From the NCBI RefSeq assembly GCF_001717505.1, contig NZ_CP017037.1, positions 287,001 through 351,000 on the forward strand: a stretch of 64,000 nt of DNA. Reading direction: 5' to 3'. Below are positions 20,646 to 27,305 of the stretch, piece by piece (positions within the stretch are counted from its first letter, which is position 1; the number at the start of each line of letters is the position of its first letter). The DNA is from Dialister pneumosintes (lineage in GTDB: Bacteria; Bacillota; Negativicutes; Veillonellales; Dialisteraceae). The notes beneath the pieces were generated by a model. That model searched no databases. It was not told where the DNA came from and saw only the letters and a list, made by a program, of their open reading frames with translations. The position numbers were made by a program, and so were the translations under genes.

Positions 20646-20713
20646 TAATATATCGATTTATACGATAGTTACTGAATTAGATGATGGTTCGTCAATAAAA
20701 ACGGCAAAAATAA

Positions 20714-21778
20714 TTATAATATTTTTTCTATTAATACTGATGCATTTTTTCGCATATCATCAGTGTAGTGAATATAGTTGTTAATTACAGTTTCTACAGT
20801 GTCTCCTAATAAAGCGGATACTGTTTTTATATCTACATTGTTAGCAAGTAGCCTAGTTGCATAAGTGTGTCTTAACGAATGGAGGGAATATTTTTCTCCA
20901 ACGTGTTTTTTTATTTTGGAATTTAATTTTGGGGTGCTAGATGCTTTCATAAATACCCTAGAGTTATTAGGTATATCTTGTTTGATATTCTTCCAGTATA
21001 TAAATAAATTATTTAGTTTTGACGGAATAGGAATAATTCTATTTCCATATTTATTTTTTACAGGAGCAAACTTATGCAGATGATATTGTTTATTAACTGA
21101 TATAGTTGATTCGTCAAAATTAATATCTTCCCATGTAATTCCAAATATTTCACTTTTTCTTAATCCCGTTTTCATTGCAGTTAATATAAACATATCATCA
21201 ATATCCGTCTTATAATTAAGCGAAGATTCTAATTTAATATATAAATCATCATTAAGAGATAATTTCTTTTCTGTTCGTTTATCGGGGAATTGTGAAATAT
21301 GAACTGTTAAATCTTCGGTTAGTAGTTTATATTTCATTGCATGCTTAATTACTGATTTTAATATTCTAATAACTAAATTAGTAGTTCCTATAGATAATCT
21401 ACTTCTTACATCATCAATAGCTTTTTTTATATTGAGATAAGACAAATCAACTACTTTAATGTTGTGTAATAATTTAACTCGTTCAATAGATCTTTGATAA
21501 GAGATTATTGTTGTCTCAGATAAAGAGGATATTTTATCTTTTAAAAACACATTTAAAGCAAACTCAAGAAATGTCATATCAAGTAAATCCATATCATCTG
21601 TTAATGATATGGTAGATTCTATTTTATCCATCATTTCTCGTTGATAAGATTTAGCTTTAGCTTTTGTTTCAAAACCTTGTTTGCTTTTTTGCTTCCATTT
21701 TCTACCTACTTTATAAGACCCTATTAATTGGTATCCGTTGTCTTTTTTTCTTATTGTAAAGTTAATTTGTAATCCCAT
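20714..21778 (-). CDS. Tyrosine-type site-specific integrase
   Basis: The 354-residue protein follows the phage integrase layout: an AP2-like arm-binding N-terminus (FTIRKKDNGYQLIGSYKVGRKWKQKSK), a SAM-like core-binding domain (about 65-155) and a catalytic domain. The catalytic residues appear as TGLRKSEIFGI (Arg), HSLRHTYATR (His-x-x-Arg) and the terminal NNYIHYT (Tyr). AAGGAG lies five bases before the ATG. It adjoins the left repeat, as expected for an integrase next to its attachment site. Confidence 0.95.
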   Translation of the reverse strand: MGLQINFTIRKKDNGYQLIGSYKVGRKWKQKSKQGFETKAKAKSYQREMMDKIESTISLTDDMDLLDMTFLEFALNVFLKDKISSLSETTIISYQRSIERVKLLHNIKVVDLSYLNIKKAIDDVRSRLSIGTTNLVIRILKSVIKHAMKYKLLTEDLTVHISQFPDKRTEKKLSLNDDLYIKLESSLNYKTDIDDMFILTAMKTGLRKSEIFGITWEDINFDESTISVNKQYHLHKFAPVKNKYGNRIIPIPSKLNNLFIYWKNIKQDIPNNSRVFMKASSTPKLNSKIKKHVGEKYSLHSLRHTYATRLLANNVDIKTVSALLGDTVETVINNYIHYTDDMRKNASVLIEKIL

Positions 21779-21793
21779 ATATACTCCTTAATA

Positions 21794-21834
21794 AAAAGCT
21801 CGCATGTGATTGTCACATACGAGCCATTTTTTTA
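21794..21834. terminator. Terminator after the Abi_2 gene (repeat copy 1)
   Basis: On the minus strand GCTCGTATGTGA pairs with TCACATGCGAGC around a CAA loop, followed by TTTTT. A near-copy lies at 24011-24050. Confidence 0.85.
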
Positions 21835-22848
21835 TTGTTTAACTGTTTCACCGTATTTCTTGTGTAATTGTTTTAAAATGTTTTCATGAAGTCCCGTTAT
21901 TTCTCTTACAAAAACAGCTGCATCATTAGGAATATTTTTGCTAAGATTTCGTAATGACGTTTCTATTCCTTCATAATCAATTACAAACATTTTTGTTTGG
22001 TCAAAAAATACAGAAAGGCAAAGGATAGCAGCTAAAATATCGTCTTGTCCATATTGATATTGGTTTATCTTATCGTTGTAAGGAATATTTAGTTCTTGAT
22101 GAATTAAGAGTTGGGGTATCATAGATACTCTTGAAGCGCGTTGGTCCATTTTGTGGATATATAGTCGGTTATTATGAGCACACTTATTTCTTATGGATGT
22201 TAAATAATAAAGAATAGATATTAACTTTTTAGGTGTTAAATTAGGATTTATTTCTTTTGCAATAGTTTTTTGCATGTCATCCGGTAAATCATCATAAAAG
22301 TTACTCATTTTACCAAATTCCATAATGGTGTTTAAAACCCAAAGGGGGACTTGATTATAAGTATTCATAAAATGACATATAGCAGGATGTTTCTTTTCGT
22401 TTTGAAATTTAGATATACTTGTTTGTAATGTATTAATAAGTTTATTGACATGATATTGTTTTGATGGAGATTTGGTAAATGAGTTAGGAGTTAAATATTC
22501 CCAATGTGATGAACCAAAACGTAAAGAAAAATGAAGAGAAATAAGTGATTTTATTTGAGTTTCTACTGTAACTATACAATATAAAAGATTTTGTCTTAAT
22601 AGAGCATCAAAACGATATAATTCAACAATATGTTGTAATGATGTACCGTCTTTATAATAATCTTGCCCTAATTTATTTGATTTAACTTTATCTATAAATG
22701 GGTCTTTATATCCATTTATTAAGTTATAGTATCCATATTGCAGAAGTACTGTTTCGTATTGAGGAGGAACAATAATATTCCGTTTTTTTAGAATAGTTAA
22801 TTGTTCTGTTAATGTTGTAGGTTTAAGAATTGATTTTTTATTTTCCAT
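21832..22848 (-). CDS. Abi_2 (AbiD/AbiF-type) HEPN abortive-infection protein
   Basis: The 338-residue protein matches the Abi_2 family: an N-terminal LTEQLTILKKRNI segment, GYYNLINGYKDPF, a helical middle (ELYRFDALLRQNLL) and the HEPN ribonuclease motif RNKCAHN (Arg220-x4-His225). The ATG at 22848 is chosen because the longer open frame to 23013 reads through the upstream RNA gene. HEPN proteins of this type are phage-defence RNases or RNA-controlled toxins. Leftward in the element, it lies directly behind a promoter, small RNA and terminator. Toxin activity is inferred. Confidence 0.88.
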   Translation of the reverse strand: MENKKSILKPTTLTEQLTILKKRNIIVPPQYETVLLQYGYYNLINGYKDPFIDKVKSNKLGQDYYKDGTSLQHIVELYRFDALLRQNLLYCIVTVETQIKSLISLHFSLRFGSSHWEYLTPNSFTKSPSKQYHVNKLINTLQTSISKFQNEKKHPAICHFMNTYNQVPLWVLNTIMEFGKMSNFYDDLPDDMQKTIAKEINPNLTPKKLISILYYLTSIRNKCAHNNRLYIHKMDQRASRVSMIPQLLIHQELNIPYNDKINQYQYGQDDILAAILCLSVFFDQTKMFVIDYEGIETSLRNLSKNIPNDAAVFVREITGLHENILKQLHKKYGETVKQ

Positions 22849-22850
22849 GA

Positions 22851-22917
22851 TAAAAGCCCTAACACATTTCTGTATTAGGGCTTGGTCCGCTTTGTGCAAT
22901 ACGCCACGGCTCAATCT
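22851..22917 (-). ncRNA. Probable small structured RNA upstream of the Abi_2 gene (abiF-RNA-like)
   Basis: A promoter at 22924-22952 would start a transcript at about 22917. It runs some 67 bases and ends in a 12-bp stem (AGCCCTAATACA paired with TGTGTTAGGGCT, GAAA tetraloop) followed by TTTT, three bases before the Abi_2 ATG. A 5' hairpin CCGT/GCGG (22906-22909 with 22887-22890) is possible. A structured RNA called abiF has been described upstream of Abi_2 genes. The match to that class is by position and architecture only and was not tested with a covariance model. Confidence 0.6.
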
Positions 22918-22923
22918 ATGCTT

Positions 22924-22952
22924 ATAATACAGAAATTTTGCAAAAAAGTCAA
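22924..22952 (-). promoter_or_regulatory. Promoter of the small RNA
   Basis: On the minus strand TTGACT (22952-22947) and TATTAT (22929-22924) are separated by 17 bp. This is stronger than the other internal promoters of the leftward arm and lies immediately before the RNA. Confidence 0.7.
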
Positions 22953-22997
22953 ATGCATTAATAAAATATATAAGTTTATTAATTATTTTTACGGTTA

Positions 22998-23291
22998 TCA
23001 AATAAATTGCCAACCGTTTAATTCAGATACTAAAGAATTGAAAGCACGGATTAAATCATCTATACGGTCATTTGAACTTGATAGGTTATCTTCTAAGTCT
23101 AAAATTCTATTTTCACAATCTAATATACGACTATCATAAGTAGAAATATCTGTGGTAATTATTTGGTTCTTTTGAAGTATTTTAATTTCTGATTGTTGGT
23201 TCGAAACTACTATCGAAAGAGCAATTACTGCAACAGTACAGATTGCATTTAAAATTAGAGAAAGTGTAAGTTTATTTAGCTTGAAATTCAT
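22998..23291 (-). CDS. Small membrane-anchored coiled-coil protein, 97 residues
   Basis: One N-terminal membrane helix (about residues 8-29) is followed by a predicted coiled coil (SEIKILQKNQ, then SRILDCENRILDLEDNLSSSND). I do not recognise the family. It lies 15 bp behind the 213-residue membrane protein and just upstream of the Abi_2 RNA promoter, in the same orientation, so it may belong to the same cargo unit. Similar anchored coiled-coil proteins occur widely in phages, and no function can be assigned. Confidence 0.65.
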   Translation of the reverse strand: MNFKLNKLTLSLILNAICTVAVIALSIVVSNQQSEIKILQKNQIITTDISTYDSRILDCENRILDLEDNLSSSNDRIDDLIRAFNSLVSELNGWQFI

Positions 23292-23306
23292 AGTTAAGCA
23301 TATCCT

Positions 23307-23948
23307 TTATAAATTGTTAGATAAATTTTCTATTTCAGGGTTATATAATGATACAAATTGCGGAATTAATAAAAGAATATTAATTATCCAAAAGCATGTT
23401 ATTGCGTAATTTTCGTTTCCTGATATCAAAAATATAAACATTGAAGCAATTAAAGCTGTAACATTAGAATCTACAAAAACATTAATCAAACTTTGAGGGA
23501 AAAACAAATGAATCACCATAGATATAAAAAATAGTGGAACTGTTACAGAAAAAACAGAAGCGATACAAGCATAGGTAAAACTAACAGGGATGTTTAAAGA
23601 TAAAAACTCAAATATTTTTGACCAATAAAAAACGCATAGATTGGCAAACAATATATGTGCAATTGTGAACAAAAAACAAACAATTATCCTTTTGTTTTTT
23701 GCTAATAAATAATATTCAAAAGCCGAAAATAGTAAACTTAAAATAAATGGAATTATCATAAACTTTACAAAATGCGCGGAGCATACCACTACATCTATTA
23801 ATGTGCTTGAGCTATAGGAAAGCAAAGTCCAAGCGATAATTGCTAAAGGAGCTAAAATAACAATAAATGAATTTAAGCTATTAACTAAAAATGAACATGA
23901 CATAATAATCGATGTAGTAGTTAAAAACAATCTTTTTATAAACGACAT
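23307..23948 (-). CDS. Polytopic membrane protein, 213 residues, unknown
   Basis: The protein is almost entirely hydrophobic, with about six membrane helices and very few charged residues. It begins MSFIKRLFLTT and has no recognisable domain. AAGGAG seven bases before the ATG supports the start. It heads the leftward unit that continues with the 97-residue protein and the Abi_2 gene, and it is isolated from the ImmA/XRE unit by a terminator at 24011-24050. Confidence 0.65.
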   Translation of the reverse strand: MSFIKRLFLTTTSIIMSCSFLVNSLNSFIVILAPLAIIAWTLLSYSSSTLIDVVVCSAHFVKFMIIPFILSLLFSAFEYYLLAKNKRIIVCFLFTIAHILFANLCVFYWSKIFEFLSLNIPVSFTYACIASVFSVTVPLFFISMVIHLFFPQSLINVFVDSNVTALIASMFIFLISGNENYAITCFWIINILLLIPQFVSLYNPEIENLSNNL

Positions 23949-24010
23949 TTTTATCTCCTTAATAACTATATAATTTTAGCTAATACTGCAACTGCTAATC
24001 CTATTAAATT

Positions 24011-24050
24011 AAAAGCTCGCATGTATTGTCACATGACGAGACATTTTTTA
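24011..24050. terminator. Terminator after the XRE-ImmA unit (repeat copy 2)
   Basis: Inverted arms around ATTGT, with flanking A and T runs, closely resemble the terminator at 21794-21834 (shared AAAAGCTCGCATGT and ATTGTCACAT). Confidence 0.75.
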
Positions 24051-24106
24051 TTGCACACATTGAACTATCAACTAATAGTTGAATGTTGACAATATTAATC
24101 TCTATA

Positions 24107-24466
24107 TTATACAGCCACTGCTAATATAAACATTATAAATGAGTATATTCCAATGACACCGAAAACAAACTCTTGCTTTTCTTTAAACAACAGTGCTTTA
24201 TCATGATTAACAAATTCTTTGTGGGGTGTTCTTTGTGCAATATAAATTAATGTTAAATATGAATCTATTACATATAACATAAGGGATTTAGTATCGTGAA
24301 CTAACAACAAGTATATAAAAATACAGAAAAATATCCCCCAGTGAAGTAATATATATCCACTGCCTATCGTGCATTTCTCGCTAGGGGGTAGTTTAAATTC
24401 ATTCGGTATAAACAAAACACCCATAATTACAAAAATTATTAAAGCTGGAATTGTTATTAAATTCAT
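24107..24466 (-). CDS. Membrane protein, 119 residues, unknown
   Basis: Four hydrophobic stretches are visible (residues 4-19, 39-58, 64-80 and 100-119), separated by a charged loop (QRTPHKEFVNHDKALLFKEKQ). The ATG is separated by only three bases from the stop of the ImmA gene, so it belongs to the XRE-ImmA operon. I do not recognise the family. Small membrane partners are sometimes found next to ImmA-type repressor-control genes. Confidence 0.65.
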   Translation of the reverse strand: MNLITIPALIIFVIMGVLFIPNEFKLPPSEKCTIGSGYILLHWGIFFCIFIYLLLVHDTKSLMLYVIDSYLTLIYIAQRTPHKEFVNHDKALLFKEKQEFVFGVIGIYSFIMFILAVAV

Positions 24467-24469
24467 AAA

Positions 24470-24928
24470 TTACGCCCGCCTCATAAAACAGCTTTCTTTA
24501 CTAAATGTTTTTAACAACTCTAATGTATCTTTAAGTGTAAGTGTTTTCTCGCCCTTGATACTATCTATCATAGTAGGGTTGTTTCTTAGACACGTATGAG
24601 CTCTCAATAAAAAGGCAAATTTATTAGCTTCATACTCTTTTTTGTCTTGCTTAGATACAGATAGCTTATGTATATCAAATAAATGATAACCGCCTTTATG
24701 AAGTATCACGTGTCCTAATTCGTGAGCAAGAACAACACTACGTTGATTATTATCTAAATTCGAATGTATTAATATAATCTTTTTATTTAACACTTTAACT
24801 AATAATCCGTATGAGTCAATGCTATCTGTATGAACAACGGATATGTTCATAAATTTGCATAATTCATACGGGTTGTTTGTTTCATATTGTCTTACTATAT
24901 CCAATACTAAAGGATACATACGTTTCAT
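24470..24928 (-). CDS. ImmA/IrrE-family metallopeptidase
   Basis: This 152-residue zinc peptidase carries HELGH (in VVLAHELGHVILH, near residue 71) and a downstream EANKFAF glutamate motif. Family members cleave the XRE-type repressor of an integrated element to trigger induction. It is placed directly after an XRE regulator with a 2-bp gap, the classical ImmR/ImmA order, so the two likely form the lysogeny switch of the element. Confidence 0.9.
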   Translation of the reverse strand: MKRMYPLVLDIVRQYETNNPYELCKFMNISVVHTDSIDSYGLLVKVLNKKIILIHSNLDNNQRSVVLAHELGHVILHKGGYHLFDIHKLSVSKQDKKEYEANKFAFLLRAHTCLRNNPTMIDSIKGEKTLTLKDTLELLKTFSKESCFMRRA

Positions 24929-24930
24929 TA

Positions 24931-25281
24931 CTATTCCTCAAGAATTGTTTTTAATATATTTCTAATTTGTTTCTTTTCTTTATCGCTTAATTCTTTACCG
25001 CCATATGTCATATATGTAGCAGAAGAAAGAATATCTTCTATTTCTACTACATGTTTTTTTATCTTTGTAGATGGAGATTCCCACCCCATTATAACGGATG
25101 GAGAAACACCGTATAGTCTTGATAAAGATTCTATTTTATCAGAAGGAATGTTTGTAATTATATTGTTTTCGTATTTAAATAGCGTTTGTTTTGTAACACC
25201 TATATAAACGCCGACTTCTTCAAGGGTAAAACCTTTTTTAATTCTTAAATCTTTTAGAAGTTCGCCTCTATTAAAATTCAT
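24931..25281 (-). CDS. XRE-family repressor (ImmR-like)
   Basis: The N-terminal helix-turn-helix reads LKDLRIKKGFTLEEVGVYIG followed by VTKQTLFKYENN. The C-terminal part is short and would be the peptidase target. I start it at ATG 25281, behind AGGGGTG, which gives 116 residues; the open frame extends 28 codons further upstream through the operator region. Two perfect 14-bp tandem repeats at 25301-25328 lie just upstream and are the likely binding sites. Confidence 0.9.
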   Translation of the reverse strand: MNFNRGELLKDLRIKKGFTLEEVGVYIGVTKQTLFKYENNIITNIPSDKIESLSRLYGVSPSVIMGWESPSTKIKKHVVEIEDILSSATYMTYGGKELSDKEKKQIRNILKTILEE

Positions 25282-25300
25282 TATAAACACCCCTACATAT

Positions 25301-25328
25301 AATATATATCCTTTAATATATATCCTTT
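25301..25328. promoter_or_regulatory. Tandem operator repeats of the XRE repressor
   Basis: AATATATATCCTTT is repeated perfectly twice, end to end, 20 bases upstream of the repressor start and between the divergent arms of the element. Confidence 0.6.
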
Positions 25329-25373
25329 GAACTTCAAAAGCAACAAAAAAATATAAAAATAACACAAAAGTGA

Positions 25374-25919
25374 CTTGACAAGTTACAAATATCTGAAGAA
25401 AAACTGCCGGCTAAGTACCAGTATGGAAACAATACCAGTTATGTTGCTAGAAAGGTAGGAGAACTTACTAATTTAATCCCTAGAAAAATAGATAATGCTA
25501 TTTATGAATATACAGGGGGAATGGGAAAGTTAACTAATGAACTTATTGACGGTGTGATGGGTTTATCTGAAACAAGACCGGCTAAGAAATTTTCCGAATA
25601 TCCGGTTATTCGAAGGTTTTTAGCAACTCCGTATAAGTCTAGCAATTCAGAGCAAATAATAAGAGGTGCGTATGAAGAACAGGAGAAATTATATAATGCA
25701 TTTAAACTGACAGGAGAAAAATCAGAATCACTAGATTTAAGAAAATATACTCAATATAAAAATGCGGTGAACGCTTTAGGACGTGTTTATAAAGCAGAAA
25801 AGATAGTTATTAATGACAAAACTATGACACCAGATCAGAAAAGACAGATATTGGATGAGTTAAACAAATCAAGAGTTAACATCTCAAGAAGAGCGTTAGG
25901 ACGTAGTCGAGTGCAATAA
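25374..25919 (+). pseudogene. 5'-truncated phage structural/polyvalent protein (LPD38-like C-terminus)
   Basis: The frame opens right after a stop at 25371 with no start codon before ATG 25521, yet the untranslated-looking part encodes family-like sequence (EEKLPAKYQYGNNTSYVARK, then LTNLIPRKIDNAIYEYTGG). This pattern resembles the C-terminal LPD38 domain of very large phage proteins. The remaining 3' part reads LSETRPAKKFSEYPVIRRFL and onward. A large gene has therefore lost its 5' end, and the junction lies near 25371. A product from ATG 25521 (132 residues) is possible but probably meaningless. Confidence 0.65.
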
Positions 25920-25923
25920 AAGA

Positions 25924-25950
25924 AAGCCTACTATTATAGTAGGCTTTTGT
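25924..25950 (+). terminator. Terminator after the truncated phage gene
   Basis: Ten-base arms AAGCCTACTA and TAGTAGGCTT with a TTA loop, followed by TT and preceded by A residues. Confidence 0.85.
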
Positions 25951-25971
25951 ATTTTAAGAAAGGAATTAATT

Positions 25972-26550
25972 ATGAAGGGAATAGATGTGTCAGAAAATAA
26001 TGGTGTTGTTGATTTTGAAAGTGTAAAAAATGCAGGGTTTGAATTTGCAATTATTAGGGTAGGCTATGGCAATGGACATTTAGATGAATGTTTTTATCGT
26101 AATGTAAATGAAGCGTTACGTTGTGGACTGCAAATAGGAGCATACCATTATTCTTATGCATTAAACGAAGAAAGGGCAAAACAAGAAGCAGAATTTGTAG
26201 TTAATACGCTCAAGCAATGCGGACTTACTCCTGATAAATTGTTAGGAGTATATTTTGACATGGAAGATGCTGATTGCTATAAACAACGTCACGGGATGCC
26301 CTCGTGGCAAACCATAACTAATATGTGTTCAATCGCCGTTAATCGTTTTTGGAAAGATGGATATGTGGCAGGGATTTATGCTAATAATGATTGGCTTGAT
26401 AATTACATTGATTATGAACAGTTAGGTGGTTGTAGTTTATGGCTTGCCGAACCTTATGTATCCGAACCAAGAAGAAAATGTAATATATGGCAATATTCTT
26501 TTAGGGAGATTATTGATGGACAAGAATTTGATGCGAATATATTATTTTAA
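25972..26550 (+). CDS. GH25 lysozyme (phage endolysin)
   Basis: This N,O-diacetylmuramidase of 192 residues begins MKGIDVSENNGVVDFE, the GH25 signature with its catalytic Asp. GVYFDMEDAD carries the second acidic pair, and the fold ends IWQYSFREIIDGQEFDANI. It has no signal peptide and no cell-wall-binding repeats, so export would depend on a holin or other route. AGAAAGGAATTAATT precedes the ATG. It forms the lysis module with the spanin-like frames. Confidence 0.93.
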   Translation: MKGIDVSENNGVVDFESVKNAGFEFAIIRVGYGNGHLDECFYRNVNEALRCGLQIGAYHYSYALNEERAKQEAEFVVNTLKQCGLTPDKLLGVYFDMEDADCYKQRHGMPSWQTITNMCSIAVNRFWKDGYVAGIYANNDWLDNYIDYEQLGGCSLWLAEPYVSEPRRKCNIWQYSFREIIDGQEFDANILF

Positions 26551-26718
26551 TTTATTTTTAGAAAAAGTCACTAAAAACTGTGACGTTTTGACACGTGTTG
26601 ATGATGTACCGTGATTATATTTGTCGCAAAAAAGTTAAAATGCGTTTAATCGCATTTTAGATAAGGTTTTAAGGAAATTGTAAATTTTGAGTGGTTTTAT
26701 TGATGAAATGAGGTAAAA

Positions 26719-27213
26719 ATGTGGATAATATTAAAACAAAAATTAAAAATATGTTTAGTTTGTATAAGTTTTATATTCTTGGTGCTGGTATCTTGTTGTT
26801 TGCCATCATATGCTTATACATCTGTAACGGCAGAACAAAATATATTGATACCTATCAATCAATACAGCGAAGTCAAGAATATAATAAACAGGCTAGAGAT
26901 GAAGTTGAACGAGCTGGAAGAAAACTTGAATATGCAGAAAGCGAACTCAAACGAGCAACAGAAACAACTGAAAACATTACAGAAACAACTGAAGACGTTA
27001 AAAGAACAGTTGACCAGAACGCAGTCATTATTAAAGGAGAGCAAGATATCATTGACTCAAGCAGAGAAGACATTAAAAAAGCAAGAAGAATCTTTGAATC
27101 AGTTGACTATGCAAATAGAATCCCTTGAACATAAAGCGAGGGTAGTCAAAAGACAGCGGAGTGTATATGCCGGAGTGGCTGGTTTATTTTTAGTTGGGTT
27201 TATTTTAAAATAA
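26719..27213 (+). CDS. Candidate spanin: signal/lipobox N-terminus, coiled coil, C-terminal membrane helix
   Basis: The 164-residue frame starts at ATG 26719, five bases after TGAGG. It has a hydrophobic N-terminus with a lipobox-like LVSC (residues 23-26), a long Gln/Lys/Leu coiled coil (about 48-140) and a hydrophobic C-terminus (about 149-163). An outer-membrane lipoprotein end plus an inner-membrane end is the unimolecular spanin plan. It overlaps the frame at 26721-27128 almost completely. One of the two could be a shadow, but both have coherent envelope topologies. The host has an outer membrane, so a spanin is expected after the lysozyme gene. Confidence 0.55.
   Translation: MWIILKQKLKICLVCISFIFLVLVSCCLPSYAYTSVTAEQNILIPINQYSEVKNIINRLEMKLNELEENLNMQKANSNEQQKQLKTLQKQLKTLKEQLTRTQSLLKESKISLTQAEKTLKKQEESLNQLTMQIESLEHKARVVKRQRSVYAGVAGLFLVGFILK
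26721..27128 (+). CDS. Candidate inner-membrane spanin in an overlapping frame
   Basis: This frame starts at GTG 26721, sharing the bases ATGTG and the ribosome-binding site with the preceding frame (spacing seven bases). The 135-residue product has an N-terminal membrane helix (about residues 16-35) and then a long charged coiled coil (YNKQARDEVERAGRKLEYAE and onward), the usual Rz-like i-spanin layout. In phage lambda the o-spanin gene also lies inside the i-spanin gene in another frame. Here nearly the whole gene overlaps and the starts differ by two bases. Expression of both is inferred. Confidence 0.55.
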   Translation: MDNIKTKIKNMFSLYKFYILGAGILLFAIICLYICNGRTKYIDTYQSIQRSQEYNKQARDEVERAGRKLEYAESELKRATETTENITETTEDVKRTVDQNAVIIKGEQDIIDSSREDIKKARRIFESVDYANRIP

Positions 27214-27221
27214 AACATGAA

Positions 27222-27256
27222 AAGCACTTACTATAATTAGTAGGTGCTTTTTTTAG
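27222..27256 (+). terminator. Terminator after the lysis genes
   Basis: Twelve-base arms AAGCACTTACTA and TAGTAGGTGCTT (one T-G pair) with a TAAT loop are followed by a run of T. Confidence 0.9.
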
Positions 27257-27305
27257 TGTAAAGATTCTATAAATCGTCAATAAAACCGTCAAAAACTGAA
27301 TAAAA

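Follow-up and report, generated by a model that had tools for sequence, protein, structure and literature searches.

One question raised by the end of a lysis region in Dialister pneumosintes is whether a single ribosome-binding site can serve two almost fully superimposed genes and, if both are real, how their products might act on the envelope of a diderm host. Within the window (the whole 64,000-nucleotide stretch analyzed here, on whose forward strand the pair, its endolysin, terminator and flanking repeats lie), a Shine-Dalgarno sequence (GAGGT, 26710-26714) is followed by the double start ATGTG (26719-26723), together forming a common initiation region at 26710-26723. From its ATG, ORF A (26719-27213) encodes a 164-residue, probably secreted coiled-coil protein conserved across Negativicutes, whereas from its GTG at 26721, ORF B (26721-27128) encodes a 135-residue i-spanin-like protein in frame +2 relative to A and lies entirely within A. 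A sequence-only reading had correctly recognized the two frames behind one ribosome-binding site and the lengths of their products, and had interpreted A as a u-spanin and B as an i-spanin that follow a GH25 lysozyme. This endolysin is indeed encoded upstream (25972-26550; Pfam PF01183, 1.5e-28), and a hairpin with a T-run directly 3' of A (27220-27254), read from the letters and absent from the scan list, is a probable terminator.

Whether both frames are genes was addressed through their homologues. A profile of A, searched class-wide against 380 Negativicutes genomes from 102 genera, matched 104 genomes and 52 genera, and 106 non-redundant full-length loci were drawn from these matches; in a broader search of the phylum, matches outside the class were weak, partial and consistent with coiled-coil background. 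Profiles of A and B (five copies each) match many common sites in related genomes; since the B frame partly follows A, matches to the B profile are no independent evidence, and permutation tests were used instead. The frame of B relative to that of A is identical in each of the 22 loci curated by hand. On average across the 106 loci, about 85% of A is open in the B frame, compared with 45% when the codons of A are permuted synonymously; openness of frame +2 reaches p 0.05 in 88 of them, against 3 for a control frame. Specifically for the window copy of A, none of 2000 synonymous-codon shuffles preserves an open B frame of the observed extent. Among 30 independent pairs, differences at A codon positions 1, 2 and 3 number 622, 655 and 946 where the two frames overlap, compared with 132, 94 and 247 in the B-free tail of A, a shift in codon-position pattern with a chi-square of 21.1 (p 2.6e-5). 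Likewise over 30 pairs, the identity of B exceeds the expectation given the A proteins, with a Stouffer Z of 9.9 compared with 0.0 in the control frame, and no stop is observed in B where 41.7 are expected. Additionally, the membrane helix and the 3.5-residue heptads of B exceed what the A protein imposes (p ~1e-18). If one frame were the sole gene, the other could be a by-product of purine-rich coiled-coil codons, which do keep other frames unusually open, as shown by the 45% retained in permuted copies. However, on each of four counts (stops, synonymous constraint, membrane helix and heptads) B goes beyond the A-only null, whereas the control frame does not, leaving this explanation a negligible probability. 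Thus, A and B are both real genes, encoded in the same DNA and both under purifying selection, and the near-complete overlap of two conserved proteins proposed earlier is borne out by the 106 loci; homologues in which one frame is broken, which would have argued against it, were sought and not found. An open B frame arising by chance was ruled out by the same permutation, stop-count, constraint and helix/heptad tests.

The starts of the two genes are more variable than their frame. An overlap above 80% and starts two bases apart had both been stressed as unusual; the former holds, with B covering 82% of A, whereas the two-base spacing is one of several arrangements. With starts chosen by a simple score, and therefore approximate, the commonest offset is -4, in which B starts four bases ahead of A as in ATGTATG (44 loci), and the +2 offset of the window (xTGTG) accounts for 15 loci, the double start ATGTG also being present in L009, L010, L017 and others. 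In further loci, B starts 7 to 40 bases ahead of A, and in L011 each frame has its own Shine-Dalgarno sequence. A TTG preceded by A serves as the start of ORF A in 26 loci, creating an ATT in the B frame one base earlier; since some loci of this class (L123, L138 and L163) lack a canonical B start upstream, their sequences suggest that B is initiated there at ATT, possibly a natural start codon. This organization differs from that of embedded spanins, about 70% of which have an o-spanin starting at 0.4-0.5 of the i-spanin length (PMC6139136): here the starts commonly fall within 10 bases of each other, and it is the shorter, i-spanin-like B that is nested in A. The pair is therefore an extreme case of dual coding, with two coiled coils and their own membrane segments in ~400 bases. 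Standard gene callers will probably report only one of the two frames, since spanin genes that overlap frequently go unrecognized (PMC6139136).

The i-spanin layout ascribed to B, i.e., an N-terminal membrane helix followed by a periplasmic coiled coil, was recovered by sequence prediction. The transmembrane helix is placed at residues 17-35 (26769-26825) and the periplasmic coiled coil at residues 38-133 (26832-27119), where heptad power exceeds that of A-synonymous permutations; AlphaFold2 models B as one helix, 2-133 (mean pLDDT 80.6). In A, a signal peptide (26719-26814) with a probable type I cleavage site after SYA (residue 32), judged by a sequence rule only, would be followed by a periplasmic coiled coil at residues 46-147 (26854-27159) and, after KRQR, by a short hydrophobic C-terminal tail at residues 148-164 (27160-27210), the segment proposed to engage the outer membrane. 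In the AlphaFold2 model of A (mean pLDDT 79.7), a low-confidence linker joins the signal helix (2-26) to a single helix from 46 to 163. The periplasmic parts of A and B both peak at a period of 3.5 over 105 loci. The A tail comprises about 14 hydrophobic residues behind a conserved R-Q-R or a similar basic cluster, usually with a final K or R; it is short, and its mean hydrophobicity over 19 residues is 0.94, whereas that of the B helix is 2.33. A simple rule for type I sites is satisfied by 86 of 105 A proteins, compared with a mean of 58 and a maximum of 74 in shuffles; because 72 of 105 B proteins also satisfy it, so that it discriminates weakly, we infer the cleavage of A with corresponding caution. 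Overall, A resembles an ordinary secreted coiled-coil protein that carries a type-I-like signal peptide and ends in a short hydrophobic tail.

A role of the A/B pair in lysis is well supported by its context. As is typical of two-component spanins, it is placed in a lysis cassette with an endolysin: of 85 loci, about 63 have an endolysin-family match in the nearest upstream ORF. At least five families are represented, the lysins being of varying and unrelated kinds (Amidase_3, 25; GH25, 15; Amidase_2, 15; a VgrG3-like C-terminal domain, 4; and others), and the constancy of the pair behind a changing lysin points to a lysis role independent of lysin type. A Phage_holin_4_1 protein is encoded upstream of the pair in L006. 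The pair is also carried by the chromosome of Veillonella parvula SKV38 (L192), where two membrane-protein ORFs and an amidase-like ORF precede it; PMC10665443 describes this species as genetically tractable. Both frames were found on 15 IMG/VR viral contigs, through queries closer to these contigs than the window A and B, which retrieved no relatives there; tblastn of the A and B proteins against INPHARED phages gave zero matches. Relatives of B are held in PHROG 18860, a family listed as of unknown function: phrog_18860 was matched by 15 of 22 B proteins (best 7e-58) and was the sole specific match. No PHROG family matching A was found, and matches to A and B in Pfam, PHROG, NCBIfam and the PDB were mostly coiled-coil background. 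A literature search combining spanins with Negativicutes or Veillonella gave nothing relevant, and no paper on the pair was found in a search that mostly excluded subscription journals and did not cover bioRxiv preprints.

To our knowledge, known spanins rely on an outer-membrane lipoprotein. The reading that we favor, with a probability of roughly 0.7, is that A and B constitute a lipoprotein-free, two-component, spanin-like system that executes the last step of the phage lysis cassette. From the predicted features we infer the secretion of A, its hetero-assembly with B, the location of its tail in the outer membrane, membrane disruption and the overall topology, as follows. One ribosome-binding site would feed two starts in two frames. 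The N-terminal helix of B would anchor it in the inner membrane with its coiled coil pointing into the periplasm, and A would be exported via a cleaved signal peptide, its own coiled coil ending in the hydrophobic, basic-flanked tail. The co-linear coding of A and B suggests a parallel assembly, in which a B-A coiled coil would span the periplasm with the N-terminus of B at the inner membrane and the tail of A at the far end, where it would insert in the outer membrane. Once the endolysin has removed the peptidoglycan, A/B could then join or disrupt the membranes, acting as a split, lipid-free counterpart of a u-spanin.

This proposal has to be weighed against known spanins, whose layouts A and B resemble. 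Similar to lambda Rz/Rz1, two lysis proteins are encoded in overlapping frames after an endolysin, and one partner (here B) combines a periplasmic coiled coil with an inner-membrane helix at its N-terminus; unlike in lambda, where Rz1 is an outer-membrane lipoprotein, no lipoprotein is present in the pair. Similar to the T1 u-spanin gp11, A has an N-terminal export signal, a periplasmic helix and a hydrophobic C-terminus; however, gp11 has a lipobox that the A family lacks, and A has a conserved overlapping partner with its own anchor. The sequence-only reading had taken A for a true u-spanin, i.e., an outer-membrane lipoprotein with a C-terminal membrane helix, accompanied by B as i-spanin. 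The lipobox-like LVSC on which it drew is present in the window copy at residues 23-26, within the signal peptide segment, and fits the consensus, but the canonical pattern occurs in 3 of 105 A homologues, the window copy included, which rules out a conserved lipobox. Moreover, LolA was found in none of the 380 Negativicutes genomes searched, the E. coli control being positive; V. parvula reportedly has neither Lol nor known outer-membrane lipoproteins (PMC10665443), and diderm Terrabacteria are generally described as having neither (PMC11784454). In hosts without Lol, there is no known route by which a lipoprotein o-spanin could reach the outer membrane. Few candidates for such a partner are encoded nearby: lipoprotein-like ORFs occur within ~1.4 kb at 8 of 105 loci, but in two of these eight the ORF is simply A or B, and in another four it is a single recurring ORF that begins with MTGKIQLP. 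Profile and family searches revealed no convincing similarity of A to any known spanin. With a lipobox that is not conserved, type-I-like signal peptides and no LolA, the u-spanin identity of A has become quite improbable, and, since the defining outer-membrane lipoprotein is missing, A/B were not filed with either the two-component spanins or the u-spanins.

A further alternative concerns the tail of A, which could insert in the inner membrane and thus make no contact with the outer membrane. The C-terminal transmembrane domain of the T1 u-spanin lies in the inner membrane. The existence of such a domain in a u-spanin (PMC6139136) and a tail hydrophobic enough to insert over 14 residues lend some plausibility to a pair residing wholly in the inner membrane, the A tail being antiparallel to B, and acting on the envelope in another way, e.g., through binding to the OmpM tether or to some other protein of the outer membrane; given how short the tail is and how far its hydrophobicity falls below that of the B helix, we consider this unlikely. 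Weak XhlA and hemolysin matches to the coiled coil and tail of A would fit a holin-like or hemolysin-like (XhlA type) permeabilizer, with B alone being spanin-like, yet these matches are at coiled-coil background level and L006 has a separate holin family protein upstream. A also has a predicted signal peptide, whereas XhlA is not known to have one, and this identity is very improbable.

The spanin-like, lipoprotein-free reading makes the pair a specific and widespread candidate for outer-membrane breach in diderms that place no lipoproteins in this membrane. An extension of it, which we advance tentatively and at somewhat less than even odds, is a class-wide, lipoprotein-independent mode of outer-membrane disruption in which an inner-membrane anchor and an outer-membrane-inserting peptide, encoded in two frames from one initiation region, would act through a parallel heteromeric coiled coil. 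If true, this would represent a type of fusogen unlike any known spanin in its architecture, and the phage answer to diderm hosts lacking Lol. Phages for which a 2018 survey recognized no spanin include those of Synechococcus and Thermus (PMC6139136).

In the window, the pair belongs to a ~6.6 kb prophage remnant (20689-27295) between attachment-site-like repeats. The left (20689-20710) and right (27274-27295) copies of this direct repeat, D6, are identical at 20 of 22 positions, and the remnant adjoins an ORF that we take to be the host rpsD, on the other strand downstream of the pair; the pair of genome G001 (L006) also adjoins rpsD. Besides the lysin and A/B, the remnant includes an integrase, a phage-like repressor, a gene of the Abi_2 family (21832-23013, 3e-42), which is of the abortive-infection type, and a fragment of a large phage protein (25521-25919). 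This fragment matches the C-terminal end of the 1636-residue phrog_9854, evidence of a deletion. A few copies of the pair elsewhere are irregular. In L181 (5970-6456), the ends of A and B both differ from those of relatives, as would be expected if an indel close to the 3' end had altered the two tails. In L061 (866-1732), the A frame joins a 288-residue ORF whose N-terminus is unrelated and which lacks the normal tail; this copy is probably decayed or rearranged. L007 (1516-1957; at about 1238067 in its own genome) is another copy of the pair from the same genome; it is truncated at its 5' end, so that A has no upstream start, and both frames are otherwise open.
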